Shown: one piece after another, positions 1 to 33,388 of the stretch | Layout of the letters: each line of letters begins with the position of its first letter | Position numbering within the stretch: position 1 is the stretch's first letter | Origin: Candidatus Merdivivens pullicola | GTDB taxonomy: Bacteria > Bacteroidota > Bacteroidia > Bacteroidales > UBA932 | Direction of reading: 5' to 3' | Assembly (NCBI GenBank): GCA_017694945.1 | Contig: JADIMA010000040.1 | Coordinates: forward strand, 1-64,000 | DNA: 64,000 nucleotides | Program-made: the position numbers and the translations under genes | The notes under the pieces: generated by a model | The model's database searches: none | Told to the model about the DNA's origin: nothing | The model's input: the letters and a program-made list of their open reading frames with translations, nothing else

Positions 1-758
1 TCAATGCCACAAATGGCAAGATTCATTTGTGCCAATTTCCATGTGTTGCTGTTGAGTTCCTGCCCGTAAACAGAAATTTGGTTGATATTACCTCGGTGAC
101 GTTCGATAAACTTACTACTCTGTACAAACATACCTCCCGAACCACAAGCCGGGTCAAAGATTTTTCCTTTGTAGGGTTGAATAACCTCAACAATGGTGCG
201 GACAACACATGATGGAGTGTAGAACTCACCGCCTTTTTTGCCTTCTTCACGAGCGAACTCTCCAAGGAAGTATTCATATACACGCCCGAGCACATCACGG
301 GCCTCTGTTCCTGTGAAATGCAGGTTGTTTTCAAAAATATCAATTACATTGCCCAAGCGGCGTTTGTCGAGTTCTGGACGGGCATAGTTTTTCGGGAGAA
401 TGCTTTTAAGCTGCCTGTTCTCCTGCTCCAACGCTTCCATTGCTGTATCAATGACAACTCCTATTTCAGCAGTAAGCGAAGCCTTGACGATTTTGTCCCA
501 ACGGGAATCTGTAGGAACAAAAAAGATGTTGTCACCGATATACTCATCAGGGTCTTCCTCAAAACCAGCACCCTCTGCTACAAGTTCATCGTGCTTAACT
601 TTGAAGCAATCGTTGATGTATTTTAAGAACACAAGTCCAAGCACTACACTTTTGTATTCGGCAGCATCGAGGTTGCCGCGTAATTCGTTTGCAGAATCCC
701 ACAGAGTTTGCTCGATAGTTTTCTTTGTTCCTTCCTTTGCTTTTACTTTTTTGGCCAT
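1..758 (-). CDS. hsdM: Type I restriction-modification system DNA methyltransferase subunit M, N-terminal part (cut by window edge)
   Basis: This ORF is absent from the supplied track because it has no stop inside the window. Reading the minus strand from the ATG at 758 gives 252 open codons starting MAKKVKAKEGTKKTIEQ. The first part is the HsdM N-terminal helical domain (LDAAEYKSVVLGLVFLKYI, then RWDKI). It is followed by the start of the N6-adenine methylase domain: GGEFYTPSCVV and the SAM-binding motif I DPACGSGGMF. The catalytic NPPF/Y motif would lie beyond base 1. By family knowledge, HsdM pairs with HsdS for target recognition and with HsdR for cleavage, and methylates adenine in host DNA. 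hsdS and hsdR are not in view. The gene is AT-richer than the core genes to the right and sits among other defence genes. Identity is firm; whether the system is complete cannot be judged here. Confidence 0.93.
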   Translation of the reverse strand, partial: MAKKVKAKEGTKKTIEQTLWDSANELRGNLDAAEYKSVVLGLVFLKYINDCFKVKHDELVAEGAGFEEDPDEYIGDNIFFVPTDSRWDKIVKASLTAEIGVVIDTAMEALEQENRQLKSILPKNYARPELDKRRLGNVIDIFENNLHFTGTEARDVLGRVYEYFLGEFAREEGKKGGEFYTPSCVVRTIVEVIQPYKGKIFDPACGSGGMFVQSSKFIERHRGNINQISVYGQELNSNTWKLAQMNLAICGI

Positions 759-1080
759 TATTATATATAAAAATGAAAACTCCGCCACTATCCCTGCGAG
801 GCTGACCAAAGCCCATAAGACAGCGAAGGAGTTTCGTATGTTATTTTATTCTTATTCTTCAGGTCATTAGCGCAGTTGCTTTTCAATCACAAAGGTAATG
901 CCTTTTCTTGAATTTTCTTGCATAATCCAGAAATAACTATTATTTGAGACTCACGTTTCATCAACTTAACTCAATGATGTATTCGACAATAGAGATTAAT
1001 TACCGACTAATATTACCATAATAAGATTGCCATACATTACAATGAAATAACAGAAATCAGCCTTAGCCCATGTGTGAGAA
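759..1080. other. Intergenic stretch between hsdM and the membrane-protein gene
   Basis: This stretch holds the hsdM leader hairpins and a possible -7 promoter box at 890-897 for minus-strand transcription. The ORFs listed here in the track are antisense to hsdM or unsupported. Bases 900-1080 are AT-rich and I see no gene in them. Confidence 0.5.
777..834 (-). promoter_or_regulatory. Structured 5' leader of hsdM (nested inverted repeats)
   Basis: Between the hsdM start and a possible -7 box (TACCTTTG on the minus strand, bases 890-897) lies an inverted repeat AAACTCC / GGAGTTT (777-783 and 828-834). It encloses a second hairpin GGCT-6 nt-AGCC (800-803 and 810-813). The arrangement would put a folded leader of roughly 60 nt just upstream of the start codon. 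I do not recognise it as a named RNA family. A regulatory leader or a small RNA are both possible. Confidence 0.4.
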
Positions 1081-1683
1081 TCATTCTTTTTTATCAGTCC
1101 GCTTCAAATATTCATTAAGAACTTCTCTTGCATAATAATAGCCTCTTTCCTTGAATCTGTTCCATGATATAATCAATAGTACCATCGCAATTGGCCAAAA
1201 CTGCCATTCGTTATAAAAACGAAAAGCACACAGAATGTCTGCAATCAATACAGTTGTAAGCATTGTTCGTGACCAAGCATATTGGGCATTAAAAGCTGGA
1301 ACTCTACAATCTTCACATCCATTGACCTTTCTCATGGCACATCCAAACATTTTCCGTTCAGAGGCATGTTGGTCATTCAATTCTTTTTTCAACGTTACTA
1401 TTGCTTTTTCAGCTTCATAGAATTTAACACGCTTACACCCTGTCCAATTTTGTCCATTCACCAATGTAAGCAGTTTATCTGATGGCATACCATTTATTGT
1501 TTTGTAATAAAAGCCTTCAAGAAGGCTTCCTATAGCATTAATAAAATATCCAGCTAAATAACCTAATGCAAGATATACAACACCATCTATTTCTGTATTT
1601 CCAAGAAAAAGATAATTGATGGCAGCCACAATAGTTACACCGATTATAGTAGTTGATAATAAATCGTAGTATTTTATATCCAT
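1081..1683 (-). CDS. Multi-pass membrane protein of unknown function, partner of the MBL-fold gene
   Basis: A 200-residue protein. Hydrophobic segments lie at about residues 10-27 and 35-53, with a second pair at about 140-155 and 160-175. A charged soluble loop of about 85 residues lies between them and contains several cysteines (GCAMRKVNGCEDC). The C-terminus is basic (RFKERGYYYAREVL). I do not recognise the family. It starts 13 bp after the MBL-fold gene with AAAGGTGA as ribosome-binding site, so the two are very likely one operon. Given the neighbouring hsdM and cas9 remnant, the pair may be a two-gene defence module with a hydrolase sensor/effector and a membrane effector. That role is inference only; no catalytic motif is visible in this protein. 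Confidence 0.75.
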   Translation of the reverse strand: MDIKYYDLLSTTIIGVTIVAAINYLFLGNTEIDGVVYLALGYLAGYFINAIGSLLEGFYYKTINGMPSDKLLTLVNGQNWTGCKRVKFYEAEKAIVTLKKELNDQHASERKMFGCAMRKVNGCEDCRVPAFNAQYAWSRTMLTTVLIADILCAFRFYNEWQFWPIAMVLLIISWNRFKERGYYYAREVLNEYLKRTDKKE

Positions 1684-1696
1684 AAGTATTTCACCT

Positions 1697-2641
1697 TTAA
1701 ATTGTTAACGTCCCTGCATAATACCAATCTACAATGGGAAATCCATAAACGGTTCGCGTAATATTTCCTTTCCCTTGTTTAGCCTTTAGGCATGTAGGCT
1801 TATTGTTTATTTTATTTTTAGTGTAAATATGCACTTCTTTACCATCATTTTCAAAACATATGTCTCCAGCTGCATTTTGAGTGATAGTCTGCATTGAATC
1901 ACCATAGTCAATATGCTCGGATGGCGCATTACCTATGATGATTAATTTAGGGTTTAATGCCTCTAATAAATCATTAGGAACAGCTCCTGATTTGCGACCA
2001 TGATGTGGCTGAAATAATATGTCTATTAGTGGAATATTATTTTTGTATTCGTCGTAGTATGCTTGTTGCATTTCTGTTTCCAAATCCCCCATCCACATAT
2101 AAGTAGCACCATTTTCTATGCTATATGTAAAAATTGGGCAAATATTATTTATCTCTTTGCCTTCGGAAACAAGTTTAAGTGCCTGCTTAAATTTTTCGTT
2201 TTTTAAATCGGGCCACATAAAATTTATTCCAGAACTCCCATTCTCGTCATTTGTTTCATTGAGCCAAGCACGTCTAATATCACGCTTTATGGCAAAATTT
2301 TTATTAGCAAGTAGCCAATGGTAGCGAGTCAAACTATCATCGCTACTGTCTGTCGGACGATTATTATCTACTGCATAAAAATTTGTAATTTCCCAACTAT
2401 CATCCAAATATTCTATGCCTGCTATATGATCGTTGTCTGGATGTGTTGATATAAAACGACAAACTCTGCCAGCAGACTCATTTTTGATCTCATTTATAAT
2501 TTCATCTTTGCGGGCATTATTCCCATTACCATCTTTCAGATAGCAATCAATAACAGTAAAATTTCGGGAACCATGTTTGATATAGAACATATCCCCTCGA
2601 ATATCTCCCTCTGGGAATGAATAAGACTTTACTATGGGCAT
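1697..2641 (-). CDS. Metallo-beta-lactamase-fold hydrolase (ComEC C-terminal-like)
   Basis: A 314-residue protein with no signal peptide. The MBL metal site is readable: STHPDNDHIAG (the HxDxDH motif, about residues 85-95), MGDLETE (the later Asp ligand), and FQPHHGRKSG (His ligand). The PHHG form together with the downstream IIIGNA resembles the MBL domain found at the C-terminus of ComEC and in stand-alone cytoplasmic relatives, rather than lactamases or lactonases. By family knowledge such enzymes are phosphodiesterases or nucleases; the substrate here is unknown. It is first gene of a two-gene operon with the membrane protein (13 bp gap). The region is AT-rich and bordered by hsdM and a cas9 remnant, suggesting a defence role, but this is inference. 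Confidence 0.85.
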   Translation of the reverse strand: MPIVKSYSFPEGDIRGDMFYIKHGSRNFTVIDCYLKDGNGNNARKDEIINEIKNESAGRVCRFISTHPDNDHIAGIEYLDDSWEITNFYAVDNNRPTDSSDDSLTRYHWLLANKNFAIKRDIRRAWLNETNDENGSSGINFMWPDLKNEKFKQALKLVSEGKEINNICPIFTYSIENGATYMWMGDLETEMQQAYYDEYKNNIPLIDILFQPHHGRKSGAVPNDLLEALNPKLIIIGNAPSEHIDYGDSMQTITQNAAGDICFENDGKEVHIYTKNKINNKPTCLKAKQGKGNITRTVYGFPIVDWYYAGTLTI

Positions 2642-3295
2642 ACTATTTTAAATCGAAATGTTTATACTTAAAATGGCAAACTATATGCCGAATTTCTTTA
2701 TATAGTCAAAAACTGACAAAAAGTCAGCACTTAGCACATTTTTTCTTATTTGGCATAATGGTGAATGTTGTTCATCATTATGTTCTCTGAAACAATATCA
2801 CAACTTTTAAAGAAATATAGTACCATTTGTTATGACTTAAATGGACGAAAGAGAAGTGGAATTCGGGAGCGAACTGCATTGATAGAGGGTGTCAGTATTA
2901 ACACCCTAATAAGTTAAGAATTGGCAAAAATGTCAAATCTCTATCTTTTGGAATGTACCATTGAAAGTTACGACCATATATCAGACTTATTACTTCAAAA
3001 TTATTGAGTAATAACCGATTGTAAATACTAATGATGCTAAGATATAGTTTTTACCTCAAAGCACAAAATGTTTCGTCAAAATTCTCTGTGACTTTTCCGA
3101 AATTCTTTTTCTAAGAGAGATCTTTCCTTATCCCATAGCATTAAAAATATTCACATCAAGACAGACGGTTTTGAGAGCATATAAGCGTAAGTTCTCTGTA
3201 AATAAAGGTTAAATACATTAAATTTTACTTCTTCGGAATGCATGTAGAACCCATAAATTCACTTTTCTACCTTTTTAATAGCAAATTATTGATAA
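2642..3295. other. AT-rich stretch with no recognisable gene, left of the cas9 remnant
   Basis: About 650 bp without a supported ORF on either strand. Translating the minus strand beyond the cas9 stop gives no further Cas9-like sequence. It holds the possible operon promoter at 2677-2710, a small hairpin GGGTGT-8 nt-ACACCC (2887-2906), and a sequence starting GTTGTGAT (minus strand, 2804 downwards) that faintly resembles a type II-C CRISPR repeat. It is best read as decayed accessory DNA. Confidence 0.5.
2677..2710 (-). promoter_or_regulatory. Possible promoter of the MBL/membrane operon
   Basis: On the minus strand TTTG is followed after 21 nt by TATAGTTTG, one base longer than the Bacteroidota consensus TAnnTTTG. 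Just upstream is a short inverted repeat CTGAC-AAAAA-GTCAG (2713-2727) that could be an operator. The match is imperfect. Confidence 0.35.
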
Positions 3296-3715
3296 TCAAT
3301 GAGTAATAGATTCTGTCATTGAAGTCATGAAAATGAATTCGGATTTGCCGTCTATGCCTTTTCTCCATGGGATTTGAGGTTCCTTGCCTTTCAATAGTTT
3401 GCCATATCTGTCAAGGCATTCAGAATAATGATCTGGCAACCAGTCCATTGCTGCGAGAACTCGGTTAAGCCGTTCTCTCCTTAAATGACTTCTTTCAATA
3501 AGTCTTCTCGTACTTCTGAACTTTGTCCTTTCGGTTGTCTGGGATTTTGTATTGCCTTTGTCGAAATCTCCTAATGTGGCTGCATCCATAGGAATAATTC
3601 TGCTTCCGGTGCATTCTATACCTGTCAATGTGTCTTTATCATTGACATTTTCCTGATTAATTACGGCCCAACCAATGGAATTCGTTCCTAAATCCAGTCC
3701 GAGAATCTTTTTCAT
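3296..3715 (-). pseudogene. cas9: Truncated Cas9 (type II, Bacteroidota II-C-like): RuvC-I and bridge helix only
   Basis: 139 residues. The N-terminus ILGLDLGTNSIGWAVI is the RuvC-I motif, with the catalytic Asp in GLDLGT. The segment RIIPMDAATLGDFDKGN followed by the arginine-rich RSTRRLIERSHLRRERL is the typical II-C Cas9 lead into the bridge helix. The reading frame follows the family to about IPWRKGIDGKSEFIF, then ends after a few residues. A full Cas9 of this group has well over 1,000 residues. REC lobe, HNH, RuvC-II, RuvC-III and PAM-interacting parts are all missing, and no continuation was found to the left. It cannot cut DNA. A tracrRNA-like gene lies directly upstream, transcribed divergently. 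Most likely this is the stump of a CRISPR locus lost when the flanking accessory DNA was exchanged. Confidence 0.92.
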
Positions 3716-3766
3716 GGTAAATGAGATTTGTTAATGTCTCAAAATTATTAAAAAAACTTGAAAAAT

Positions 3767-3797
3767 TTTGTTGTTTTGATGAAACATCTTATTTTTG
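3767..3797 (+). promoter_or_regulatory. Bacteroidota promoter of the tracrRNA-like gene
   Basis: TTTG at 3767-3770 is followed after 19 nt by TATTTTTG at 3790-3797, a full match to the phylum consensus TTTG / TAnnTTTG. The expected transcription start near 3803 coincides with the first base of the predicted anti-repeat. Confidence 0.7.
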
Positions 3798-3800
3798 AAC

Positions 3801-3892
3801 GAAATTTGAAGCGATTCACAATAAGGATTATTCCGTTGTGAAAACATTTAAAGGGGTGCCTATAGACTTTCTATAGAGCATCCCTTTCTTTT
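3801..3892 (+). ncRNA. tracrRNA-like RNA of the degraded type II-C CRISPR locus
   Basis: The parts, in order, are those of a tracrRNA. An anti-repeat-like GAAATTTGAAGCGATTCACAA (3801-3821) would pair with Bacteroidota II-C repeats, which begin GTTGTGA and then CTTTCAAA or similar. Next is a nexus-like AAGGATTATTCCGTT, closely comparable to AAGGCTAGTCCGTT in the Streptococcus pyogenes tracrRNA. A strong terminator hairpin follows: GGGGTGC CTATAGA CTT TCTATAG A GCATCCC, then TTTCTTTT (3853-3892). It has its own promoter and lies immediately upstream of, and divergent from, the cas9 stump. TTCACAA and TTGTGAA could also pair with each other. On the minus strand the same hairpin could end sulfatase transcription, which is the main alternative reading for the 3' part. 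Confidence 0.75.
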
Positions 3893-3934
3893 GGAACGCT
3901 TGTTTATCTTGCGTGCCCCGTACTCCCTGCACAG

Positions 3935-5395
3935 TTATTCGCCTTGCAGCAGCGGCCAGGCAGGGTCAGGCACATGTTCCCTCTCCATTATCGAACGCAG
4001 TTCTTCGGCGATCCGGAGGTATTCGTCAGTGACATGTTCTTCGTCGAGCAGGTTGACGGTCTCGGACGGGTCGTTTTCCAAATTGTACAGTTCCCATACC
4101 GATGCTTCTCCGGAAGATGCAAAGAGCCTTATGAGTTTCATGTCTCCAGATATGACGGCCTGTTTGCCGCCTTCTTCCTGGAACTCGAAATAAAGCCAGT
4201 CGTGTTCAGGCTGGCTGCCTTTGCCTGTGAGTGCCGGAAGTATGGACATGCCGTCACCGCCTGAAAAGCGTCCCGTATCAGTGTCCGGCCGGGGCTGCAA
4301 TATCTGTCTGAAAGTCGGAAAAATATCCCAGAAAGTCATCGTGTGCCCGTTCTGGCTGCCGGGTTCAATTACGCCTTCCCATGCGGCTATGAATGGCACC
4401 CTTATTCCGCCTTCGTAAAGGTCTCTCTTGTAGCCCCTGAAGATTCCGTTGCTGTTGAAGAAATCGGGATCGGCGCCGCCTTCCATGTGCGGCCCGTTGT
4501 CACTGGCAAAGATGATCAGAGTGTTGCCGAGTATGCCGTTTTCTTTCAACTTGTCGATTACCTGGCCGACATACATGTCGAGTCTGTAAACCATTGCTGC
4601 AAAAGTCGCGCGTGGTTCCGGTTGCGAACAATATCCGCCTTTACGGAACGCCGGGCCTGAATCACAGCCTTTGTAAGGCGTTTCCGGGTACATCCCGCTG
4701 AATTTGGCCAGAATGGAGTCTTTCGGTACGAGCAGTTCCGCGTGAGGCAGTACATACGGAAGGAAAAGGAAAAATGGTTTGTCTGCATTGTCGTCTATGA
4801 ATTCCAGCGCCTTTTCATTTATCAGATCCTGGGAGTATGTCCCGAATCCTCCGTCGGCATTGTCTTCAAGAATGATTTTCCTATCGTTTTCCCAAAGATG
4901 GTCGGGATAGTAATTGTGTGCGAGTAGCTGACAGTTGTATCCGAAAAATTCGTCAATTCCCTGGTTTGAAGGGTCGCCTGTAGTCCCCGGTGCTCCCAGT
5001 CCCCATTTGCCGAACGCTCCTGTAGCGTATCCGTTTTCTTTGAAAAAGAGGAAAATGTTGTCCATTTCCGGCAGAGGATACTGTCCTTCGGGAGGGGTCT
5101 CGATGTTTCCTCTTACGGGAGCATGCCCTGAATGCAGGCCGGTGAGCAGGCAGGCCCGCGATGGCGCGCTGACAGTTGTTCCGGAATAGCATCTTGTGAA
5201 GCGCATCCCGTGTGCGGCGAGGCTGTCGATGTTGGGAGTGTCGAATTTTTCCTGACCATAGCAGCCGACATCTCCGTACCCGAGGTCGTCGGCAAGGATG
5301 AATACTATGTTTGGAGTGCCCGCCTGTTCCGTCTGGCATCCAGCGACCGCTGTGCAGCCGAGTGCCATGCCCGATATCATCAATCCCTTTTTCAT
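3935..5395 (-). CDS. Sulfatase of the S1 family, Ser-type, lipoprotein
   Basis: A 486-residue protein. The N-terminus is a lipoprotein signal (MKKGLMISGMALGCTAVAGC). The S1 sulfatase metal ligands appear as ILADDLGYGD (Asp36, Asp37) and FASDNGPH. The signature S-A-P-S-R (Ser76 to Arg80, followed by ACLLTG) contains the residue converted to formylglycine. Because it is Ser and not Cys, conversion needs an anaerobic radical-SAM maturase, and exactly such a gene is encoded divergently 118 bp away. By family knowledge it removes sulfate esters from host or algal glycans (mucin, glycosaminoglycans). The exact substrate cannot be read from the sequence. Probable location is the periplasm or outer membrane. 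Confidence 0.93.
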   Translation of the reverse strand: MKKGLMISGMALGCTAVAGCQTEQAGTPNIVFILADDLGYGDVGCYGQEKFDTPNIDSLAAHGMRFTRCYSGTTVSAPSRACLLTGLHSGHAPVRGNIETPPEGQYPLPEMDNIFLFFKENGYATGAFGKWGLGAPGTTGDPSNQGIDEFFGYNCQLLAHNYYPDHLWENDRKIILEDNADGGFGTYSQDLINEKALEFIDDNADKPFFLFLPYVLPHAELLVPKDSILAKFSGMYPETPYKGCDSGPAFRKGGYCSQPEPRATFAAMVYRLDMYVGQVIDKLKENGILGNTLIIFASDNGPHMEGGADPDFFNSNGIFRGYKRDLYEGGIRVPFIAAWEGVIEPGSQNGHTMTFWDIFPTFRQILQPRPDTDTGRFSGGDGMSILPALTGKGSQPEHDWLYFEFQEEGGKQAVISGDMKLIRLFASSGEASVWELYNLENDPSETVNLLDEEHVTDEYLRIAEELRSIMEREHVPDPAWPLLQGE

Positions 5396-5435
5396 TGTAA
5401 GTCTGTTTGTTTACGCTACAAAATAAATGAATAAA

Positions 5436-5466
5436 TTGTAGAAAATTCAAAACATTTCTATTTTTG
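5436..5466 (+). promoter_or_regulatory. Promoter of the sulfatase-maturase gene
   Basis: TTG at 5436-5438 and TATTTTTG at 5459-5466 are separated by 20 nt, matching the Bacteroidota consensus. The maturase start codon follows 48 nt downstream. Confidence 0.6.
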
Positions 5467-5513
5467 TTGAAAAAATCTCAACCATTTCTTTGCGGATTAA
5501 CAATTGAACCGTC

Positions 5514-6668
5514 ATGGGAAAAACATTCAATCTTGAGTATATTCTGGAAGACGGGCGTTTTGTACAGTCGCGTCCGTACTCGTTGATGCTTAAACCTGTC
5601 GGCGGCGCCTGCAACCTGAATTGCGCTTATTGTTATTACAAGGGCGGCCATGATGCCGGCAGGATGGATATCCGCCAATTGGAAACAGTATTCCGGGATT
5701 ATGCGGATTCCCAGCCCTCCGGCGCGCCTCTGACTTTTATCTGGCATGGAGGCGAACCACTGTTGGCAGGTGAGAAGTATTTGAGGGAAGCGGTCGGTTT
5801 GCAGAAACGCATGTTTTCTTTACAGGGAGGCGCTTCAAAGGAACCGAGGCAGGTGGCCAATATCCTGCAGACCAATGCGACGGCGGTGACGGAGAGCCTT
5901 GCTTCCTTCCTTGCTGAAAACCATTTTCTTTGCGGTGTGTCGATTGACGGGCCTGAGACTTTGCACGACATTCCGAGGCGCACGGTGGCCGGAGAAGGCT
6001 CGTGGAGGCAGGCCATGCGTGGCGTAGGGTTGCTCCAACGGGCTGGAGTTCAGATTAATGCGATGGTTGCCGTAGGGAAGCACAATGTATCCCGGCCTGA
6101 GTCGGTTTATGGTTTTCTGAAAGATGCAGGCTTTGAATATATACAGTTGCTTCCTGTTGCCGAGGGCCCGTCGGGTTGGCTGGAAGGGGAGGACTGGGGG
6201 GATTTTCTGTGCGGAGTCTTTGATCTGTGGCGGATTTCCGATATAGGAAGGGTGTTTGTCAATTATTTTGACAACACTCTTGCCCTGCATGCCGGAATGG
6301 GGCCGGATTTGTGTGTCCTCGGCAAGAGTTGCCCTCCCTGCCCTTCAGTAGAGGCCGACGGGCGGATATATGCCTGCGATCATGTCTCCCGACCTCTCGG
6401 AGGCAACGTCATTGAAGGTTCGCATCTTGCCGAAATCATGTCGTCTTCCCTGGAATACGGGCACGAGACTGAGAAATTCCAGTCCCTTTCGGGAAAATGC
6501 CTTTCGTGCCGTTATCTGAAACTCTGCAACGGGGACTGTCCGGTTCACAGAACGGTATTGACGGAAACCGGAGAACGCATATCGTCTTTATGTCCTGGAT
6601 ACATGAAGTATTTTGCCCATACGTATGATTTTTTTGCGGAATGGGCGGCGTCGATTATCGTCCGCTGA
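5514..6668 (+). CDS. Anaerobic sulfatase-maturating enzyme (radical SAM, SPASM)
   Basis: A 384-residue protein. The radical-SAM cluster motif is CNLNCAYC (Cys33, Cys37, Cys40), followed by YYKGG. The C-terminal half carries the SPASM cysteines that bind two more 4Fe-4S clusters: CVLGKSCPPC, IYACDH and CLSCRYLKLCNGDC. This is the anSME architecture and length. The enzyme converts the active-site Ser or Cys of sulfatases into C-alpha-formylglycine, in the cytoplasm and without oxygen. The divergent neighbour is a Ser-type sulfatase and is its obvious client. The 3' end overlaps the convergent 5-formyl-THF cyclo-ligase gene by 14 bp. Confidence 0.93.
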   Translation: MGKTFNLEYILEDGRFVQSRPYSLMLKPVGGACNLNCAYCYYKGGHDAGRMDIRQLETVFRDYADSQPSGAPLTFIWHGGEPLLAGEKYLREAVGLQKRMFSLQGGASKEPRQVANILQTNATAVTESLASFLAENHFLCGVSIDGPETLHDIPRRTVAGEGSWRQAMRGVGLLQRAGVQINAMVAVGKHNVSRPESVYGFLKDAGFEYIQLLPVAEGPSGWLEGEDWGDFLCGVFDLWRISDIGRVFVNYFDNTLALHAGMGPDLCVLGKSCPPCPSVEADGRIYACDHVSRPLGGNVIEGSHLAEIMSSSLEYGHETEKFQSLSGKCLSCRYLKLCNGDCPVHRTVLTETGERISSLCPGYMKYFAHTYDFFAEWAASIIVR

Positions 6669-7206
6669 AAGTCTCCGAGATTACTTTGTCCATTAGGATG
6701 TCGTGGGGTTCTTTTGGAACCGATTCGACGAGTTGGAAATCAAAACAGATTCCGGTCTTGAATACGCTGCTTCCTGAAAGCAGCCTGTCGTAGAAGCCTT
6801 TCCCTCTGCCCATGCGGCCTCCTTCGCGGTCAAATGCAACTCCCGGTACTATTACAAGGTCTATTTCATCTATGGATGCTTCGCGTGAGCCTGTCTTTGG
6901 TTCCGGAATAGAGTAGGATTCGCCGTCGTGCATTTCGTCCAGCCCGGTAAACTGTCTGATAATCAAGTCGTCTCCGTTGACCACGGGGAGGAAAACGGTT
7001 TTTCCGGAAGCCGCCGCCCTTGTTACAAGGTCGTGCGTATTGACTTCATCTGGCAGTGACCAGTAACAAAGCACGTTGCGGGCTTCAATGTATTCCGGGC
7101 TGCTTTCAAGGTTGGCTATGACGGTTTTTGACCTGTTGAGCCGTTCTTCCTGAGGACACTGTTTTTTCAGAGAAGATATTGTTTTTCTCAATTCTTTCTT
7201 TTCCAC
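6655..7206 (-). CDS. 5-formyltetrahydrofolate cyclo-ligase
   Basis: A 183-residue protein, the usual length. The family signature is clear near the C-terminus: VPGVAFDREGGRMGRGKGFYD, which forms the ATP/folate site. The N-terminus begins with the typical KKELRKTISSLKK helix, followed by a conserved YWSLPDEVNT strand. It converts 5-formyl-THF to 5,10-methenyl-THF with ATP, returning inhibitory folate to the one-carbon pool. It is the last of a small minus-strand group after the DUF2752 gene, with only 2 bp between that gene's stop and this start, which suggests co-transcription. Confidence 0.94.
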   Translation of the reverse strand: MEKKELRKTISSLKKQCPQEERLNRSKTVIANLESSPEYIEARNVLCYWSLPDEVNTHDLVTRAAASGKTVFLPVVNGDDLIIRQFTGLDEMHDGESYSIPEPKTGSREASIDEIDLVIVPGVAFDREGGRMGRGKGFYDRLLSGSSVFKTGICFDFQLVESVPKEPHDILMDKVISETFSGR

Positions 7207-7208
7207 GG

Positions 7209-7592
7209 TTATATGCTTATTATATTACGGACGATCCACCATGCGATTACCACGACGAGGACTGTTATTGCTGTTTTCGGGCTGTTTATTGCGGCATGGA
7301 ATTTCGGATGGCTTTTTCTTGTGATTTCGGCTGCACCCAGCACTGCAAGGAACGGGATGGAGGCAACCAGCAGCGCATTATGTCTTAACGCCTCGCCCGG
7401 ATGTCCATGCAGTAAGTCATGTATGGCTCTTTGAGAACCGCAGCCCGGGCATTGCAGGCCGGTAAGGGCGAAAAACGGGCATTTTGGAAACAATGCGTCT
7501 GTTTCCGGGTCAATTGTCGCATAGAGGCAGACTAAAACCACGGCGACAGCAACCACTGCCGCCACAATTGCTTTCCGACCACGTTCTGTCAT
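7209..7592 (-). CDS. DUF2752 small membrane protein
   Basis: A 127-residue protein with a hydrophobic N-terminal segment (about residues 9-25), the DUF2752 motif FPKCPFFALTGLQCPGCGSQRA, and two further hydrophobic stretches near residues 70-90 and 105-122. The conserved Cys pair plus CPGCG is the family hallmark; its function is unknown. The start overlaps the ribosome-binding region of the preceding CD225-type gene (stop TAG, then GATG), so the two are translated together. This pairing of DUF2752 with a CD225/TM2-like gene is, as far as I recall, common in Bacteroidales. Confidence 0.85.
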   Translation of the reverse strand: MTERGRKAIVAAVVAVAVVLVCLYATIDPETDALFPKCPFFALTGLQCPGCGSQRAIHDLLHGHPGEALRHNALLVASIPFLAVLGAAEITRKSHPKFHAAINSPKTAITVLVVVIAWWIVRNIISI

Positions 7593-7593
7593 C

Positions 7594-7893
7594 CTACATT
7601 CCCATGGAAGCCAGAGAGAATATGCTGATTCCGGCTATGAAGTAGAGCAGAATCCAGAATAGATAATATGCGATTCCGCAGAAAAATGAAATCTTTGTCC
7701 ATTTTCCGGCATTTCCGCTGGCTCTTTGGGCTTCTTCAAAACGCCCTGCATGATAGTTGGAACTTACCTGTGCGGCATAGACGATGCCGACGATACCGAA
7801 CGGCAGGCAGCAGAAAATAGTTGCGAGGATTGATTCGGCCAGCCAGGTCTTAGGGCAAGGCGAATTGTAAGGCGTATTGTTATACACTTCCAT
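7594..7893 (-). CDS. CD225/dispanin-like small membrane protein
   Basis: A 99-residue protein. A Pro/Asn-rich N-terminus is followed by the CD225 pattern WLAESILATIFCCLPFGIVG, then GIVYAAQVSSNYHAGRFEEA, and a second membrane segment. This two-helix layout is that of the interferon-induced transmembrane/dispanin superfamily, which is widespread and poorly characterised in bacteria. It is the first gene of a three-gene minus-strand run (this gene, DUF2752, 5-formyl-THF cyclo-ligase). Confidence 0.85.
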   Translation of the reverse strand: MEVYNNTPYNSPCPKTWLAESILATIFCCLPFGIVGIVYAAQVSSNYHAGRFEEAQRASGNAGKWTKISFFCGIAYYLFWILLYFIAGISIFSLASMGM

Positions 7894-7944
7894 AATAAGA
7901 TAGATTATAGGGTTTAATTTTCCGACTGCTAATTTAAAAATTTG

Positions 7945-8838
7945 TCATGAAATTCCAAAAACGTCTTCAGGGTGGGTGCCTAACGGTTCTACGTGTACCA
8001 CTATGTCATATACTTCCGGTATCGACTCTCGGATATTCTGTTCCACCTGGCTTGCCAGAGCGTGTGCGCGGGCCAGGGTGATATTGCCGTCGGCTTCGAC
8101 ATCGAGGGTAATCATGTATTTCCCGCCTATGCTTCTCGATCTTATGCGGTGTGGATGGCTTACTCCCTGCACTTTGGATGTGGCGTCGGCGATTTTCTGA
8201 TAAACCGATACATCTTTCACTCCGTCCATGAGTTCGATATTGGAATCCATGAAGATTTTAATTGCAGACCATACGATGAAGCAACTTACGATGATGGCTG
8301 TTACGGAGTCGAGTACGGGCATTTTGAGTATAAAGGAGAAAAACAGTCCTGCAAGCACGCTCAGCGATATTATCATGTCGTTCCGCATGTTGATGCCGTT
8401 GGCGATGAGCATGGACGAGCCGGTCTTTTTCCCTATCCTTGTCTGGTACAGCGACAGCAGCAGTTTGCATACGATGGAACCAGCGGTCACATATATCGCA
8501 ATCATTCCGGGCATGACCCTCTGCTCTTCGGAGAAAAGGTGCCTGATGCTGGAGACGAACATTTCGGCTCCGGCGAAAAATATGACCATTGAAAGTATTT
8601 TTGTCGCTATCGATTCGGCCTTGGCATAACCATACACGTATTTGAGGTTCGGCTTTTTCCCCATGATTTTTGCCGTGGCTATCATTACTATGGATATTGC
8701 CACGTCCGACGCCGAATCTATTCCGTCGCCTATCACGGCTACGCTGCCGCTGATGAACCCGGTGATGATTTTCGCGGCTGCCAGTATTCCGTTGCCAGCG
8801 GTGCTGATGTATGAGGCCTTGAGAATCTGTTTTTCCAT
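7945..8838 (-). CDS. Cation diffusion facilitator family metal efflux transporter
   Basis: A 297-residue protein from the chosen start MEKQILKASYI. The ORF track starts 13 codons earlier, inside a sequence that resembles the end of the intergenic repeat, and those extra residues (MYPHVGEFEYFCD) do not look like CDF sequence. Six membrane helices are expected. The metal-site motif appears as GDGIDSASD in helix 2, followed by YGYAKAES in the cytoplasmic loop and DSVTAIIVS in helix 5. The C-terminal ferredoxin-like domain (residues about 205-285) includes HPHRIRSRSIGGK. It exports Zn, Mn, Fe or similar ions against protons; the metal is not predictable here. Confidence 0.9.
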   Translation of the reverse strand: MEKQILKASYISTAGNGILAAAKIITGFISGSVAVIGDGIDSASDVAISIVMIATAKIMGKKPNLKYVYGYAKAESIATKILSMVIFFAGAEMFVSSIRHLFSEEQRVMPGMIAIYVTAGSIVCKLLLSLYQTRIGKKTGSSMLIANGINMRNDMIISLSVLAGLFFSFILKMPVLDSVTAIIVSCFIVWSAIKIFMDSNIELMDGVKDVSVYQKIADATSKVQGVSHPHRIRSRSIGGKYMITLDVEADGNITLARAHALASQVEQNIRESIPEVYDIVVHVEPLGTHPEDVFGIS

Positions 8839-13850: not shown

Positions 13851-13907
13851 TATCCTTTTCCCATTCTCCGCAGGAATTCCGAAACCTCATGGTTTGCGGA
13901 TAAAAAC

Positions 13908-14104
13908 ATAACGGCAGGTCTCCTGGCTCGTTCCGGCCGCAACGCCTTCCCATTATCCTGTCATTGCTGACATGTTAACAGTGGCAGTCGAATGTGCGGT
14001 CTTGCCCGTTTAATGGCGGAACTTACAGTAGCGGGAACTGCATCCGGTTTTCACGGATTTCCCTTTTATTTTCCTGTCCCGGACGGAACAGGAAAAACCG
14101 TTAC
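13908..14104 (-). promoter_or_regulatory. Cobalamin (adenosylcobalamin-type) riboswitch upstream of btuB
   Basis: On the minus strand the conserved elements appear in order: AAAAGGGAAATCCGTGAAAA, GCAGTTCCCGCTACTGTAA, GACTGCCACTG, TGGGAAGGC, and the B12 box GCCAGGAGACCTGCC (13913-13928). A -7 box TATCTTTG (14111-14118) places the RNA start close to 14104. About 60 nt separate the B12 box from the btuB start, without a clear intrinsic terminator, so control of translation initiation is more likely than attenuation. High corrinoid should turn the btuB operon off. Confidence 0.95.
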
Positions 14105-14110
14105 AGTCGG

Positions 14111-14118
14111 CAAAGATA
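14111..14118 (-). promoter_or_regulatory. -7 promoter box for the btuB operon
   Basis: TATCTTTG on the minus strand matches TAnnTTTG and lies just upstream of the first riboswitch helix. No convincing -33 TTTG was seen at the usual distance. Confidence 0.5.
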
Positions 14119-15938: not shown

Positions 15939-15970
15939 CGAAATATTTTAATGTTTTCTGCTTTTTAACC

Positions 15971-16357
15971 TATTATTCGCAAAAATACCCCTTGAAGAAT
16001 AACCGGGTACGCCTTCTTTGGGCCGCGCCACGACTTAATTTAAAAATATTGCAATATATTGATATATAGTGAATTGCTATTGTAACAATATTTTATAAGT
16101 GTGGATTCTGAGGGGTTCGGAAGCCCTTGAAATCCACACTAATTTTTCGTGATGTATGTTGTTTTCCTCTGATTTACAATGTGTTGTGTAAACAAAAGTT
16201 AGGTCGGGGCGTGGCCTTGAGTGCACGACACCGCATTGCTCGGCGCAACCGTTCCGCAATGTGATAAGAGTTTCGGGAAAGTGCCCGTGATTCCGGCAAA
16301 TCCTTGGCACTTTTCCCTCATCCGCACACATAAGGGGTATTTTTGCGGATAATCATA
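15971..16357. mobile_element. MITE-like intergenic element, copy A (nested inverted repeats, central hairpin)
   Basis: The ends are inverted copies: ATTATTCGCAAAAATACCCC at the left and GGGGTATTTTTGCGGATAAT at the right (one mismatch). Inside lies a second inverted pair, GGCCGCGCCACGACTTAATT (16021-16040) and its imperfect partner TTAGGTCGGGGCGTGGCC. The core of about 196 bp has a central hairpin AGTGTGGATT / AATCCACACT (about 16098-16140) and a TTTACA/TGTAAA stem. Copy B is the same element in the opposite orientation: about 89% identical by eye in the core, with the hairpin region unchanged. No ORF is carried. This is the pattern of a non-autonomous transposable element or intergenic repeat; no transposase is in the window. 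Confidence 0.8.
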
Positions 16358-21739: not shown

Positions 21740-24576
21740 GTATGGAGAAAAATATAGTCATAAAAGGAGCAAGGGTAAATAACCTTAAAAATATCGATGT
21801 GGAGATTCCACGGGGGGAACTCACTGTCATAACGGGCATTTCGGGTTCCGGAAAATCTTCGCTTGCTTTCGACACCCTGTTCGCCGAAGGCCAGCGGCGT
21901 TTTGCTGAAAGCCTTTCTTCGTATGCCAGGCAGTTTCTGGGGCGAATGTCCAAGCCGGATGTGGATTCGGTTGACGGGATTCCGCCCGCGATAGCCATCG
22001 AACAGAAAGTCAACAGCCGCAATCCCCGCTCTACGGTAGGGACATCGACAGAGATATATGACTTGCTCCGTACAGTGTTTGCAAAGATAGGGAGGACATT
22101 TTCTCCGGTGTCGGGCCGGGAGGTGAAAAAGGAAGGCATGGCGGATGTCGCTTCTTTTGTCTGTTCCATGCCGGGAACATATTATGTTCTTGCCGATTTC
22201 GGCTGGAAAGACAAGGGACACAGAATCGAAATGCTGCTTGCCCTGAAGGAGGAGGGGTTTTCCCGTCTTTTCAAAGACGGCGCTCCGGTAAGGATAGACG
22301 AGTTGCTGTCGGATGAATCCGGACTTGACGGGGACGAGGTGTATCTGCTGGTTGACAGGCTCAGGGTGGAAGACCGGCGGATGGATTCCGACGACGAACT
22401 CAGGGACAGGATATATGACTCTTCAAAGACTGCATTTGAAAAAGGGGGAGGATATATGAAAGTGGCCCGGGACAGTGGAGACGGGCTGGTTTTCAGAGAG
22501 TTTTCCAGCCGTTTTGAGGCGGATGGCATCAAGTTCGAAGAGCCGTCCGAACTCCTGTTCAGTTTCAACAATCCTCTCGGGGCATGTCCGAGATGCGGGG
22601 GATTCGGCAAAGTGGAAGGCATAGATGAAGACCTTGTCGTTCCTGACAAGAGCCTTTCCGTCTATGAAGGGGCTGTCGTATGCTGGCGAGGGGAGGTTAT
22701 GAAATATTTTTATGACAACTGCATCCTGAATGCTGAAAAATACGGTCTCCCCATCCATGTCCCTTATTCGGAACTGACACGCCGTCAGCGCAATGTCCTG
22801 TGGAAAGGTGAGGGCGACCTGATAGGGATAGACGGTTTTTTCAAATGGGTGGAGAGCAACCGTTATAAAATACAGTACAGATATATGCTGAGCCGTTTCA
22901 CAGGCCGGACGGTCTGCCCTGAATGCGAAGGAAGCAGGCTCAGGAAAGAGGCCCTGTATGTGAAAGTCGCCGGTAAGAACATAAATGAAATGCTGTCTAT
23001 GAGCATAGGTGGGCTGTATGATTTCCTTGACGGTATCAGCCTTGATGCCTATGAACTCAAAGTCGCCGGAAAAGTCATCGATGAAATCAGGCAGAGACTT
23101 TCGTATATAGTCAAGGTCGGCCTTTCGTATCTGACTCTCGACAGGCTGAGCAATTCTCTTTCCGGCGGTGAAAGCCAGCGTATCAATCTTGTGAGCGCTC
23201 TCGGTAGTTCTCTTGTCGGTTCCCTCTATGTGCTCGACGAACCGAGCATAGGCCTGCATCCTCGCGATACCCGCCGGCTCATATCCGTACTTAAAGATTT
23301 GAGGGATCTTGGAAATACCGTAGTCGTTGTAGAGCATGACAGGGAGATAATCGAGGCTGCCGACTGCCTGATCGACATGGGCCCCTATGCCGGTATTTAC
23401 GGAGGACAGGTCATGTACTCCGGCCCGATTCCGGAAAAATTTCCCGAAGGCTCGGAGTCGCTGACCATGCAGTTCCTGTTCGGGCGCAGGAGCGTGGCTT
23501 CCGAAAGGAATAAGCGCGGCTGGTCGGAATCCCTGAGGATTTCCGGCGTTTCGCACCACAATCTCAAGAACATATCTGTTGAAATTCCTCTCGGGGTAAT
23601 GACGGCTGTTACCGGAGTCAGCGGCAGCGGCAAGTCCTCTCTCGTCGGGGATGTGCTTTATCCGGCCCTTATGAGGCATTTCAACAGGGTGGCCGAGAAG
23701 CCGGGCACATACCGCGAACTCGGGGGCGACCTGTCGTCCATAACTTCCGTGGAGTATATCGATCAGAACCCGATAGGGAAGAGTTCCCGTTCCAATGCAG
23801 TGACATATCTGAAAATATACGACGATATCAGAAAATTGTATGCTTCGCAGAAGTATGCGCAGATGAACGGCTTCACTCCTTCGTTTTTCTCATTCAACGG
23901 AGGTGACGGGCGTTGTCCCGAATGTCTCGGCGAAGGTGTTGTGCGCATAGGCATGCAGTTCATGGCCGATGTTACCATGGTTTGCGAAAGTTGCGGAGGA
24001 AAACGTTTCAAACCCGAAATACTGGAGGTCAAGTACAAGGACAAATCCATAAATGAGATTCTGGACATGAGTGTTGCCGAGGCGATAGAGTTTTTCTCCG
24101 ACAGCAGCGATCCGCTTTCCGTAAGGATAGCGAAACGGCTTCAGCCTCTTGTGGATGTCGGCCTTTCGTATATCCGTCTCGGGCAAAGCAGCAGTACGCT
24201 TTCCGGCGGGGAGAGCCAGAGGGTGAAACTTGCGGCCTTTCTTGCCTGCGGCGGATATTCTTCGGATGAGCAGGTTACGCGCGCCGGTACGAAGGATGAA
24301 AGGATACTGTTCATTTTCGACGAACCTACGACGGGGCTGCATTTCTATGATGTTGAAAAACTCCTGAAGTCTTTCGACGCCCTGCTTTCACTCGGACATT
24401 CGATTCTTGTAGTCGAACACAATCTTGATGTCATTTCGGCAGCCGACTGGGTGATAGACCTTGGCCCTGACGGAGGAGAGGCCGGGGGAGAGATAGTGTT
24501 TGCAGGGAAGCCGGAGGTTCTGCGCCGGAGGACGGATCTTTTTACGGGGGCGGCCCTGGCAGGACTTATCTTGTAA
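21736..24576 (+). CDS. uvrA: Excinuclease ABC subunit A
   Basis: A 946-residue protein, standard UvrA length, with two ABC modules. The first Walker A is GISGSGKSS and the second GVSGSGKSS; signatures LSGGESQRI and LSGGESQRV; Walker [13 protein letters not shown] and [11 protein letters not shown]. Zinc-binding CxxC pairs appear as [23 protein letters not shown] and CESCGGKRF. After [13 protein letters not shown] the first zinc module found in E. coli UvrA is reduced, as in other Bacteroidota as far as I recall. UvrA dimers find bulky lesions and load UvrB. The start overlaps the RSH stop (ATGA). Confidence 0.98.
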
Positions 24577-25558
24577 GTCTTTCAATGAACAGATAGATAT
24601 ATTTTGCTCTCATTTCCAGTGCTTTCCTGTCAATGTTGGCGATTGTGTCGCTGGTCTTGTAAGTGTGTTTGTTTATTCCGGAAGTAAACATAAGGGAGAC
24701 AATTCCGTTGTCTATGAAGTTCACCTGGTCTGAAAGCCGCAGGAACAGGTCGGAAAATTTTTTGCTTCCGTAGTAGTCGAAACCTATGCCGAGATCAGGA
24801 ATGAAATATCTTCCCGTTACTTCAAGGACGGTTCTGTCGTATTCTTCAAGTGCTTCGCTTCCGAGAACCATCAGGTATTCCCGGTGGTATGGATCAATGG
24901 GTTCGAGAATCGAGCCTAACTGGTCGATGTTCGCCATGAATGCTATCTTGTCTCTGCTGATTTTCTCTCCAGATACAGGGTCGGCTATCCCTTCCTGTGA
25001 CAGCAGGGAGTCCACGAAAGCCCTTGAGCCGGCCATGCTGTATTCTTTGGCGTCAAAGGCTACGAGGATGACGGAGCGGCTTGCAGTGTCTTTCAGGAAA
25101 CGGTTCATTGCGAACTGGCGGGCCAGATACCCCAGTGCGGCCACTCCCGAGGCGTTGTCATCCGCTCCCGGATAAATCTTTCCGTCGAGTTTCCCGAGAT
25201 GGTCGTAGTGCGCTCCGATTATTATATATGGTTTTTCGTATTTTTCATGATTGTTGCCCCTGATGATTCCTGCAAGATTCCTGCATACTGCCGTGCCGCC
25301 AGCGGTCTTTGTCGTGAAAGGCTGTGCGTACCCGTCTTTGAAAAGCGGGGTGAGGCGTGCGTTTTCAAAAATGCTTTCAATATATACTGCCGCTTCAAAG
25401 GAGCCTGTTGTTCCGCTGGAACGCCCTCCGCATGTCTGTGAGGAAAGGAATTCCACGGCATACATCATGTCGGCGTTGTAGGGCGGCTGGGAATGTGATG
25501 TGCCGAGGCTGAGTACGAAACAGAGGACGATGGATATTGTCAGGCGGGTATATGTCAT
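24566..25558 (-). CDS. M28-family zinc peptidase, exported
   Basis: A 330-residue protein from the chosen start MTYTRLTISIVLCFVLSLGTS, a signal peptide preceded by a -7 box 24 nt upstream; the longer ORF in the track runs into the promoter and repeat DNA. The M28 zinc ligands are visible: AHYDHLG (His117), GADDNASG (Asp133/134), Glu172, NIDQLGS, and INKHTYKTSDT near the C-terminus. The motif usually written EE (base plus ligand) is KE here (FDAKEYSMAGS, Lys171-Glu172), so the general base may be absent. Family members are aminopeptidases or glutaminyl cyclases in the periplasm. The 3' end overlaps uvrA by 11 bp, converging. Confidence 0.88.
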   Translation of the reverse strand: MTYTRLTISIVLCFVLSLGTSHSQPPYNADMMYAVEFLSSQTCGGRSSGTTGSFEAAVYIESIFENARLTPLFKDGYAQPFTTKTAGGTAVCRNLAGIIRGNNHEKYEKPYIIIGAHYDHLGKLDGKIYPGADDNASGVAALGYLARQFAMNRFLKDTASRSVILVAFDAKEYSMAGSRAFVDSLLSQEGIADPVSGEKISRDKIAFMANIDQLGSILEPIDPYHREYLMVLGSEALEEYDRTVLEVTGRYFIPDLGIGFDYYGSKKFSDLFLRLSDQVNFIDNGIVSLMFTSGINKHTYKTSDTIANIDRKALEMRAKYIYLFIERLTR

Positions 25559-25581
25559 TTTACAGTTAAATTTAGCGGCTG

Positions 25582-25589
25582 CAAAGTTA
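25582..25589 (-). promoter_or_regulatory. -7 promoter box of the M28 peptidase gene
   Basis: TAACTTTG on the minus strand matches TAnnTTTG and lies 24 nt from the chosen start codon. It supports the shorter reading frame. Confidence 0.5.
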
Positions 25590-25618
25590 GGAACTGTTTC
25601 GATTTTTTCTAAAAAAAT

Positions 25619-25970
25619 ACGATTATCCGCAAAAATATCCCCTTGTATGGGAGAAAGTGCCTTCCGGCAGTATGCTCCGGGCATGGTGGCCTGAATCGTG
25701 CAACGGCATGAAGCGCACCAATGCCACGCCCCGACTTAATTTTTGTTTATACAACCCATTGTAAATCAGTAATAAACAACACGCACCACGAAAAATAAGT
25801 GTGGATTTCAAGGGCTTCCGAACCCCTCAGAATCCACACTTATAAAATATTGTTACAATAGTAATTCGCTATATATCAATATATTGTAATATCTTTGAAT
25901 TAAGTCGGGGCGTGGCCCAAAGAAGGCGTATCCGCTTATTCTTCAAGAGGTATTTTTGCGGATAATCATA
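25619..25970. mobile_element. MITE-like intergenic element, copy B (reverse orientation to copy A)
   Basis: Outer ends are GATTATCCGCAAAAATATCC (left) and GGTATTTTTGCGGATAATC (right). The inner inverted repeat is perfect over 19 bp: GCCACGCCCCGACTTAATT (25723-25741) against AATTAAGTCGGGGCGTGGC (25899-25917). The central stem AAGTGTGGATT / AATCCACACTT is an uninterrupted 11 bp. The reverse complement aligns with copy A from the left end to the inner right repeat; beyond that, the stretch between inner and outer right repeat differs in sequence and length. It lies between divergent genes and its right end may supply the -33 box for the TPR gene. Confidence 0.82.
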
Positions 25971-25987
25971 AAAAAAAATTATTTTTG
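25955..25987 (+). promoter_or_regulatory. Promoter of the TPR gene, partly formed by the end of element B
   Basis: TTTG within the terminal repeat (25955-25958), 21 nt, TATTTTTG (25980-25987). The -33 box is element sequence and the -7 box is just outside it. Confidence 0.5.
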
Positions 25988-26018: not shown

Positions 26019-28052
26019 ATGGATTCGGTTTGGAAATATATCATAGTCGCTTTCGCCGTGCTTTTTGCCGTGTGTCCGGAAGTGTCGGGGCAATATGATA
26101 CCGACAGGTTTTATCTGCGGGGTCGGCAGGCACTCATAGAAGGCAAGTATTCGACGGCGATAGAAAACTTCAATATTCTCGTCCGCCTTGATCCGGACAG
26201 TTACGAGACGTTTTTTTTCCGTGGCATAGCGAAATACAATCTTGGGGATTTCCGCGGGGCGCTGGATGACTTCGACATGGCTGTCGAAATCAATCCCGTC
26301 TATACGGATGCATATCATTATAAGGGCATTACCCTTAGCCGTATAGGCAAGTATGACGAGGCTCTTGAAAACATAAACGAGGCCGTTTCGCTCCGCCCTG
26401 GCTTTATTCCGCTGTATTTCAGCCGCGGTGTGACTTATTTCCTATCCCAGAGGTTTGAAGATGCGGTGCGGGATTTCAACCGTTTTATTGCGCAGGAACC
26501 GGACGAGGCGACGGCGTATCTCAACAGAGGGGCTTCCTATCTGTATCTCGGGGACACACTCAAGGCTTTGGATGATTATGACATGGCCATCAGGCTGGAC
26601 AGGTTCGATCCTGAAGGATATATCCGCAGAGGCAGGCTGTATGCAATGTCCGGACGGCAGCAGGACGCGCTGTCCGATATGGACAGGGCGATTTCACTCG
26701 ATACTTCCAATACTTTCGCGTATTTCAACAGGGCTATTCTCCGTTATGACAACAGGGACATACGCGGGGCAATGTCGGATTTGAACAGGGTTCTGGAGGA
26801 TGAACCGGGCAATGCACTGACGCTTTACAACCGCGGGCTTATCCGCGCCCAGGTGATGGATTACGAGGGGGCGTTGGACGATCTTGACAGGGTCATCGCC
26901 ATCAATCCCCGGAATGTGCTGGCTTATTTCAACAGGGCTTCGGTTTTCATTGAAATGGGCAGGTACTGGGATGCGATACACGATTATGACAAGGCGATAG
27001 AACTTTATCCGGATTTTGCCAAGGCGTACATGAACAGGTCTTACCTTAAGAACCTTATGGGGTTTGCCGCTGAATCAAGGAAAGATTACGAGACGGCCCA
27101 GAGCAAGATTGAAGAGTACCAGAAGAAGGTGAGTACCGCCGAAGGCGCTTCGGCTTTCGCAGATACGGCAAGGCAGTACAGTTCTTTGCTGAGTCTCGAT
27201 GCCGAGTTCGCGCAGCACGATTTCAATGACGAACTTTTGCAGTACAGGGACATCGATGTAAGGCTGAGGCCGATGTACAAGATAACCCCGGGGCAGAAAG
27301 CCCCATGGTCACGGTTGGACAAAGGCTATGAGAACCCGTCTGCTGATTCGTTGCTTGCCAGCCTGCCTTTCTCGGCAATAGTGTCCAATGGGGAGGACGG
27401 CGTCGGTGAGGCCGGTGAGAGATATTCCGATTTTCTTGAAGTCATCTCCAAAGATCTTTCTGAAAACAGGGGCGACCAGGCAATGGAACTTTTTGCGAAG
27501 GGGATACTGGAGTCGGAAGAACAGCAATTCAATTCCGCAATGGAAGACTATACCTCGGCAATAGAGTCGTCTTCGGATGCCTCAAACATCCTGCAGGCGA
27601 TGATTTACATGAACCGTGGCGCGCTCCAGGCGGATATGATAGAGTTCATTTCTTCCATGCAGCACAATGTGCAGGTGCTTACATTGGACAACAGCCGCAG
27701 CACGACTACGGCCCGGGTTCAGGATCAGACGATGAACAGGTATGATTACAGTGAGGCCATCGGGGACATGATCAAGGCGTCGATGCTTTATGGAGAATAT
27801 CCTTACATATTTTTCAATCTCGGCAATCTTTTCGTACTGTCGTCCGAACATACTGAGGCCATTGACAATTACACGCGGGCCATCGAACTCTTCCCTTATT
27901 TCGGAGATGCGTTCTTCAACCGCGGCCTTGTTCTGATATATCTGAAGGACAAGGAAAAAGGCTGCATCGACCTGTCAAAGGCAGGCGAACTCGGGATTGA
28001 CGATGCTTACAGCGTAATCAATAAATATTGCGAAGAGGAGCAACTGTTATAG
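26019..28052 (+). CDS. Exported tetratricopeptide-repeat protein
   Basis: A 677-residue protein from MDSVWKYIIVAFAVLFAVCPEVSGQ, a signal peptide. The track start is a TTG inside the repeat element and upstream of the likely transcription start, so it was rejected. At least nine TPR units of 34 residues run from about residue 25 to 345 (for example YHYKGITLSRIGKYDEALENINEAV, shown here as a pattern of A/G, Y and P-ending helices). A low-complexity linker follows, and a second group of TPRs lies at about 495-660. It is a protein-interaction scaffold in the periplasm or outer membrane; specific partner unknown. Its end overlaps the convergent nadE gene by 6 bp. Confidence 0.85.
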   Translation: MDSVWKYIIVAFAVLFAVCPEVSGQYDTDRFYLRGRQALIEGKYSTAIENFNILVRLDPDSYETFFFRGIAKYNLGDFRGALDDFDMAVEINPVYTDAYHYKGITLSRIGKYDEALENINEAVSLRPGFIPLYFSRGVTYFLSQRFEDAVRDFNRFIAQEPDEATAYLNRGASYLYLGDTLKALDDYDMAIRLDRFDPEGYIRRGRLYAMSGRQQDALSDMDRAISLDTSNTFAYFNRAILRYDNRDIRGAMSDLNRVLEDEPGNALTLYNRGLIRAQVMDYEGALDDLDRVIAINPRNVLAYFNRASVFIEMGRYWDAIHDYDKAIELYPDFAKAYMNRSYLKNLMGFAAESRKDYETAQSKIEEYQKKVSTAEGASAFADTARQYSSLLSLDAEFAQHDFNDELLQYRDIDVRLRPMYKITPGQKAPWSRLDKGYENPSADSLLASLPFSAIVSNGEDGVGEAGERYSDFLEVISKDLSENRGDQAMELFAKGILESEEQQFNSAMEDYTSAIESSSDASNILQAMIYMNRGALQADMIEFISSMQHNVQVLTLDNSRSTTTARVQDQTMNRYDYSEAIGDMIKASMLYGEYPYIFFNLGNLFVLSSEHTEAIDNYTRAIELFPYFGDAFFNRGLVLIYLKDKEKGCIDLSKAGELGIDDAYSVINKYCEEEQLL

Positions 28053-33309: not shown

Positions 33310-33388
33310 AGAATAGCCGGATATGCCTTATTCGGGACACGGCACGGCTATGGAAATATCGGGGTGATTTTGCGGATAATCAATAAAA
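33306..33388. repeat. Degenerate, internally deleted third copy of the MITE-like element
   Basis: GAAGAATAGCCGGATATGCC (33306-33325) matches the left flank of copies A and B (GAAGAATAAGCGGATACGCC in B reversed) with three differences. It continues CTTATTCGGGACACGGCACG, a decayed inner repeat. After a short unrelated stretch comes the right terminal repeat, GGGGTGATTTTGCGGATAAT. The core with the hairpin is missing. It overlaps the coaE stop codon. Confidence 0.65.

Follow-up and report, generated by a model that had tools for sequence, protein, structure and literature searches.

Position and architecture of the element

The window analysed here, the whole stretch of 64,000 nucleotides, belongs to a draft assembly of 1.89 Mb, in 87 contigs and with 94% completeness, of a chicken-gut-type member of the Bacteroidales that is labelled G000 below and whose genus is taken to be Merdivivens; the two congeners that share the core are Candidatus Merdivivens pullistercoris (G001) and Muribaculum sp. 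An289 (G002). Between the genes for an M28-family peptidase and a TPR-repeat protein, inspection of the sequence delimited a 353-bp element with nested inverted repeats, referred to as copy B (Table 1). Its outer arms (25618-25637 and 25951-25970) are complementary at 19 of 20 positions. As had been noted, the inner 19-bp ends (GCCACGCCCCGACTTAATT) are exact, pairing at 19/19 positions, and the 11-bp central stem is present as well, within a pairing of 25795-25818 with 25820-25843 that is 83% complementary over 24 bp and exact in its outer 13 bp. Copy B has no ORF of its own, the reading frames found there being only extensions of neighbouring frames.

Table 1. Features of copy B and of the genes and sites that flank it
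Feature	Position	Strand	Remarks
M28-family peptidase gene, neighbour	24566..25558	-	start chosen inside the mechanical ORF 24566-25684
TAACTTTG, putative -7 box of the divergent M28 peptidase gene	25582..25589	-	
Left target duplication TAAAAAAA	25610..25617	.	7/8 match to right copy; homopolymer, weak alone
Copy B, entire non-autonomous element	25618..25970	+	ends TAC-GATTATCC ... GGATAATC-ATA
IS1595-type terminal inverted repeat, left	25618..25641	+	22/24 identical to G201 transposon end
Left variable module	25642..25724	+	
Inner 19-bp arm, left	25723..25741	+	includes core end CACGCCCCGACTTAA
190-bp palindromic core	25725..25914	+	top score of all copies with the family model
Central palindrome within core	25795..25843	.	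24-nt arms, 1-nt centre
Inner 19-bp arm, right	25898..25916	-	
Right module	25915..25946	+	length differs among copies
IS1595-type terminal inverted repeat, right	25947..25970	-	23/24 identical to G201 transposon end
TTTG in right terminal repeat, candidate -33 element	25955..25958	+	
Right target duplication AAAAAAAA	25971..25978	.	
TATTTTTG, putative -7 box of the TPR gene, ancestral and lying beyond the element	25980..25987	+	32 nt from TPR gene
TPR-repeat protein gene, neighbour	26019..28052	+	

Copy A, a second member of the family, lies in reverse orientation at 15968-16357. Its left module resembles the version found in Ca. Merdivivens pullistercoris (CACATTGCGGAACGGTTGCGCC...), a likeness that suggests module exchange between copies. 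At 33361-33381 there is a lone outer end with a short module, lacking both partner and core, the remnant of another copy. The window also contains a cobalamin riboswitch (13896-14117, minus strand; Rfam RF00174, 94.9 bits).

The original prediction had read the exact inner repeats of copy B as a sign that it is younger than copy A, a claim that was not sustained. Because 15 of 28 copies have core arms that are exact, the two most diverged among them, such arms give no date; of the 190 core positions, 13 deviate from the consensus in copy B and 15 in copy A.

An IS1595-type family, probably moved in trans

The unit of about 350 bp represented by copy B occurs in about 40 copies in this genome, and the 14-bp end motif GATTATCCGCAAAA, with at most one mismatch, was found 62 times, as opposed to none for the reversed control, indicating that the unit is not a product of chance. 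The copies are dispersed and intergenic, and their orientation to genes, judged by crude ORF calls, is not constant. Copy B therefore has the properties by which a MITE is recognized, namely short length, absence of a transposase gene and many dispersed intergenic copies. No match was found in the plasmid records searched.

The outer 20-24 bp of the ends match those of IS1595-family transposons of sister genera at 22-23 of 24 bases. Ends of the form TAYGATTATCCGCAAAAATACCCC also bound two sister-genus transposons, L154 (3.25 kb) and L164 (7.59 kb), whose transposases contain the domains DDE_Tnp_IS1595 and Zn_ribbon_IS1595. Perfect 8-bp duplications, AAAAAATG and AAAAAGAT, border the two transposons in the register that the family shows. 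The three closest transposases (at least 61% identity) have this end near the gene, at about 90 bp in two cases and about 890 bp in L164, and no such end was found beside the gene for transposases at or below 58% identity among those scanned. L164 itself (positions 582-8162, genome G201) is a 7.6-kb IS1595-type transposon with a radical SAM/SPASM gene and other passengers.

The target duplication of copy B is a run of A that matches at 7 of 8 positions, and at least 7/8 was reached in just 5 of 19 copies; over the 8-bp flanks of these 19 two-ended elements of this genome, however, 87 of 152 positions match versus 57 after shuffling (none of 5000 shuffles as high), and the signal drops at 9 bp. 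An earlier candidate, a 2-bp TA target duplication, was superseded by 8 bp on the register test. IS1595 elements are reported to generate A/T-rich 8-bp repeats, AAAAAAAA included (PMC12561309, PMC8101967). The match of the terminal repeats, together with the A/T-rich 8-bp duplication of the family, leads us to classify copy B, from sequence comparison, as a MITE, a non-autonomous transposable element of the IS1595 type.

An IS1595 transposase was not found in the window's own genome, Ca. Merdivivens pullistercoris or An289, two of these three assemblies being drafts in about 100 contigs, which points to movement in trans, either in the past or from an unassembled gene. The proposed mechanism is that an IS1595-family transposase, predicted to recognize TAYGATTATCCGCAAAAATA ends, would move copy B in trans and duplicate 8 A/T-rich bases, and that this transposase acted in an ancestor or is presumably encoded in the unassembled part. 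A fragment of an IS4/IS5-type transposase (G000:C77) was rejected as a source, being without the element ends.

Elements in Ca. Merdivivens pullistercoris (G001) and in G207 (L181-L193 and L158-L160) carry the same outer ends around quite different nested palindromes (CCGTTCACGAGGCCACGGGCGGCCACG...) that are common to both genera, and from these the outer ends may be viewed as carrying palindromic cargo in general. One core copy (G000:C18:6244-6700) is interrupted by a second repeat, bounded by AGAAGCTGTTTAAAATTTTTTC, which also occurs at contig ends in this genome and in G001.

A core of nearly constant length

Between the modules, from CACGCCCCGACTTAA to TTAAGTCGGGGCGTG, runs a core that is exactly 190 nt long in all 45 aligned copies from three species, an alignment that left out a few copies with large internal deletions (L028, L030, C48); the copies listed by the model search for the core measure 190 nt, or 189 in a few cases, apart from one that is cut down. 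In this genome 8 of 17 right modules have a length other than the modal one, versus 0 of 28 cores (P = 1e-4), and the left module, measured from the end motif to the core, spans 37-150 nt in copies other than copy B. A supposedly decaying repeat thus contains a 190-bp unit in which indels are almost absent at a mean divergence of 15-31%.

Four core copies lie at orthologous sites in two species. Their identities are 69%, 82%, 96% and 68%, and the four together show a single gap, whereas identity at the fourfold sites of neighbouring genes is 54-56%. The 96% pair might partly reflect transfer between species, as other nearby blocks are about 92% identical. Given the constant length beside variable modules and the higher identity of the orthologous copies relative to the fourfold sites, the core seems to be functionally constrained.

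A covariance model search of 199 relatives detected the core only in the three Merdivivens-group genomes (G000, G001 and G002), plus one marginal match, and a pattern scan of 84,980 species genomes, from which that of the window is possibly absent, detected it only in Ca. Merdivivens pullistercoris and An289; the viral contigs searched contained no core. In An289 the core stands alone, with no outer-end remnant within 200 bp in the 11 copies examined. We propose that the core would be a separate, older family of the genus that is carried between the MITE ends and whose length is kept by selection.

Alternatively, the core could itself be a MITE that has 15-bp terminal repeats and lies within the IS1595-type one, its fixed length being due to recent bursts or transposition geometry. 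This explanation, which has a substantial chance of being correct but which we consider somewhat doubtful, would account for the terminal repeats CACGCCCCGACTTAA, for the isolated copies scattered between genes in An289 and for one copy, L016 (G000:C35:8126-8447), whose core is inverted relative to the outer modules (one case among about 28). Nevertheless, no target duplication was seen by eye at core-only sites, and no transposase with core ends was found; when an autonomous element with the core's own ends was sought in An289, the paired ends were 189-190 bp apart and the other ends were singles of related repeats. Moreover, the orthologous copies keep their length despite the low identity of the fourfold sites. 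The inverted copy on C35 had also raised the possibility of an invertible promoter (inverton), which was rejected, since the TATCTTTG located close to the core end in copy B is not maintained across the family. Three loci of An289 (L348, L352 and L353) contain a repeat, AACGCCCCGACTTAA..., that is related but has another centre (CCACGYGGAT).

As to the nature of the core, its ends and centre are the most conserved parts; what the A/T-rich arms have in common is limited to short motifs (TGTAAATCA, TATATCA). Two stems show modest covariation. A structured non-coding RNA or leader is suggested by some two-sided stem changes and by the folding of the copy B core 9.6 sd below shuffled sequences, yet perfect inverted repeats necessarily fold well. 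In addition, the shared RNA fold consists of a terminal stem and central hairpin only, the arm folds differing between species groups, the orientation to genes is not constant, and no family reached threshold for the element when the window and the element were searched with Rfam, so an RNA is improbable. A dyad site in the DNA, with a protein-binding or structural role, is the most likely identity of the core, ahead of an RNA, and this assignment is the least secure step of our interpretation.

A further, tentative proposal, which we regard as unlikely but worth stating, is that the core is a DNA element maintained by the host throughout the genus (e.g., for protein wrapping or chromosome organisation), which has kept a fixed length at orthologous loci over very long periods, and that an IS1595-type MITE captured and multiplied it in some species. 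If so, a selfish element would now be spreading a functional chromosomal site. The near-constant length and the orthologous retention point to a function for a repeat family that the present searches located in this genus alone.

Possible effect of the insertion on neighbouring promoters

The original prediction held that the insertion had created or rewired the promoter of the TPR gene. The geometry on which it relied is confirmed, with TTTG in the right terminal repeat located 21 nt before TATTTTTG, so that both boxes of a candidate sigma-ABfr promoter (TTTG / TAnnTTTG) occur at a fitting spacing. This spacing of an element-borne TTTG and an outside -7 box is what creation de novo would have to recommend it. 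However, neither congener has the element at this locus, and in both of them the -7 box TATTTTTGCA occupies the corresponding position before the TPR gene (TATTTTTGCAGTCCGG in An289; TATTTTTGCG, with its own TTTG at spacing 20, in Ca. Merdivivens pullistercoris). Of the non-self orthologs in the family, 19 of 29 are preceded by a TAnnTTTG box. Because it is present before the same gene in congeners without the element and in most family orthologs, the putative -7 box is ancestral and older than the insertion. The comparison with element-free relatives thus refutes creation for the -7 box, and a promoter made de novo is highly improbable.

Rewiring fares better. Joining the flanks of copy B to reconstruct the pre-insertion site yields only TTCG at spacing 17 or TTTC at spacing 18, and a perfect TTTG at spacing 21 may have replaced these weaker sequences; the -7 half was not donated. 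The insertion would accordingly have replaced the upstream (-33) half only, and the prediction of a promoter-donating element appears half right. In the sequence of events that we envisage, the element entered A/T-rich DNA immediately before a -7 box that was already there, after which its end may have offered the replacement -33 TTTG.

On the other side, the -7 box of the peptidase gene lies about 30 bp from the left end of copy B, as noted originally. The peptidase promoter is apparently untouched, its -33-like TTTA being within the target duplication and outside the element.

Whether such an arrangement is general was considered across the family. In this genome, an outward -7 box at a spacing of 16-24 was found at 7 of 71 element ends, compared with 0.4 expected from composition; the density of outward -7 boxes falls with distance from the ends, and the opposite orientation is nearly empty. 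In Ca. Merdivivens pullistercoris the boxes peak 40-60 nt out from the ends and the close-spacing peak was not reproduced, and a systematic promoter-restoring spacing of 19-22 nt, hinted at by this genome, was consequently dropped. The chance that the element is neutral for expression, having landed through a preference for A/T-rich targets with an incidental -33 match, is only a little short of even: positions 3-11 outside the ends are more than 80% A/T, and the 40-60 nt distance of most ends in Ca. Merdivivens pullistercoris would leave promoters whole, although the excess of closely spaced boxes in this genome speaks against neutrality. The general rule is probably insertion into A/T-rich DNA at promoters, with donation of a -33 element as a recurrent by-product in this genome and not a universal design. 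The promoter side of the story is modest, that of a transposable element swapping one half of an old promoter.

Taken as a whole, there is a good probability that copy B is an IS1595-type MITE, moved in trans, that inserted upstream of an existing -7 box, offers the -33 TTTG and carries a separate, older core whose length is under selection.

Comparison with known systems

The IS1595 family, which has ISXO2-like transposases and Merlin as its eukaryotic counterpart, shares with copy B the terminal repeats, held in common with the sister-genus transposons, and the 8-bp A/T-rich target duplication; copy B differs in having no transposase gene and an interior unrelated to the autonomous elements seen. 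The Correia elements of Neisseria have ends and a target duplication other than those of copy B. They are nevertheless similar as MITEs near promoters, with outward promoter parts and reported inversion (PMC10969869), although copy B supplies only the -33 half.

BrickBuilt and other MITEs of Porphyromonas gingivalis are likewise intergenic elements of the Bacteroidales in which IS-like terminal repeats surround an unrelated repeated interior and that possibly influence neighbouring promoters; however, the repeat trapped by BrickBuilt is a 23-nt tandem one, between ends that match ISPg1/ISPg9, whereas copy B encloses a fixed-length 190-bp palindrome between IS1595 ends (PMC4596501). Finally, the mobile promoters of IS1186 type that precede cfiA in Bacteroides fragilis (cited in PMC9330008) resemble copy B in that an inserted element supplies promoter parts in a Bacteroidales host; there the insertion switches on a silent gene, while at the copy B site an existing promoter would have lost and regained only its -33 part.
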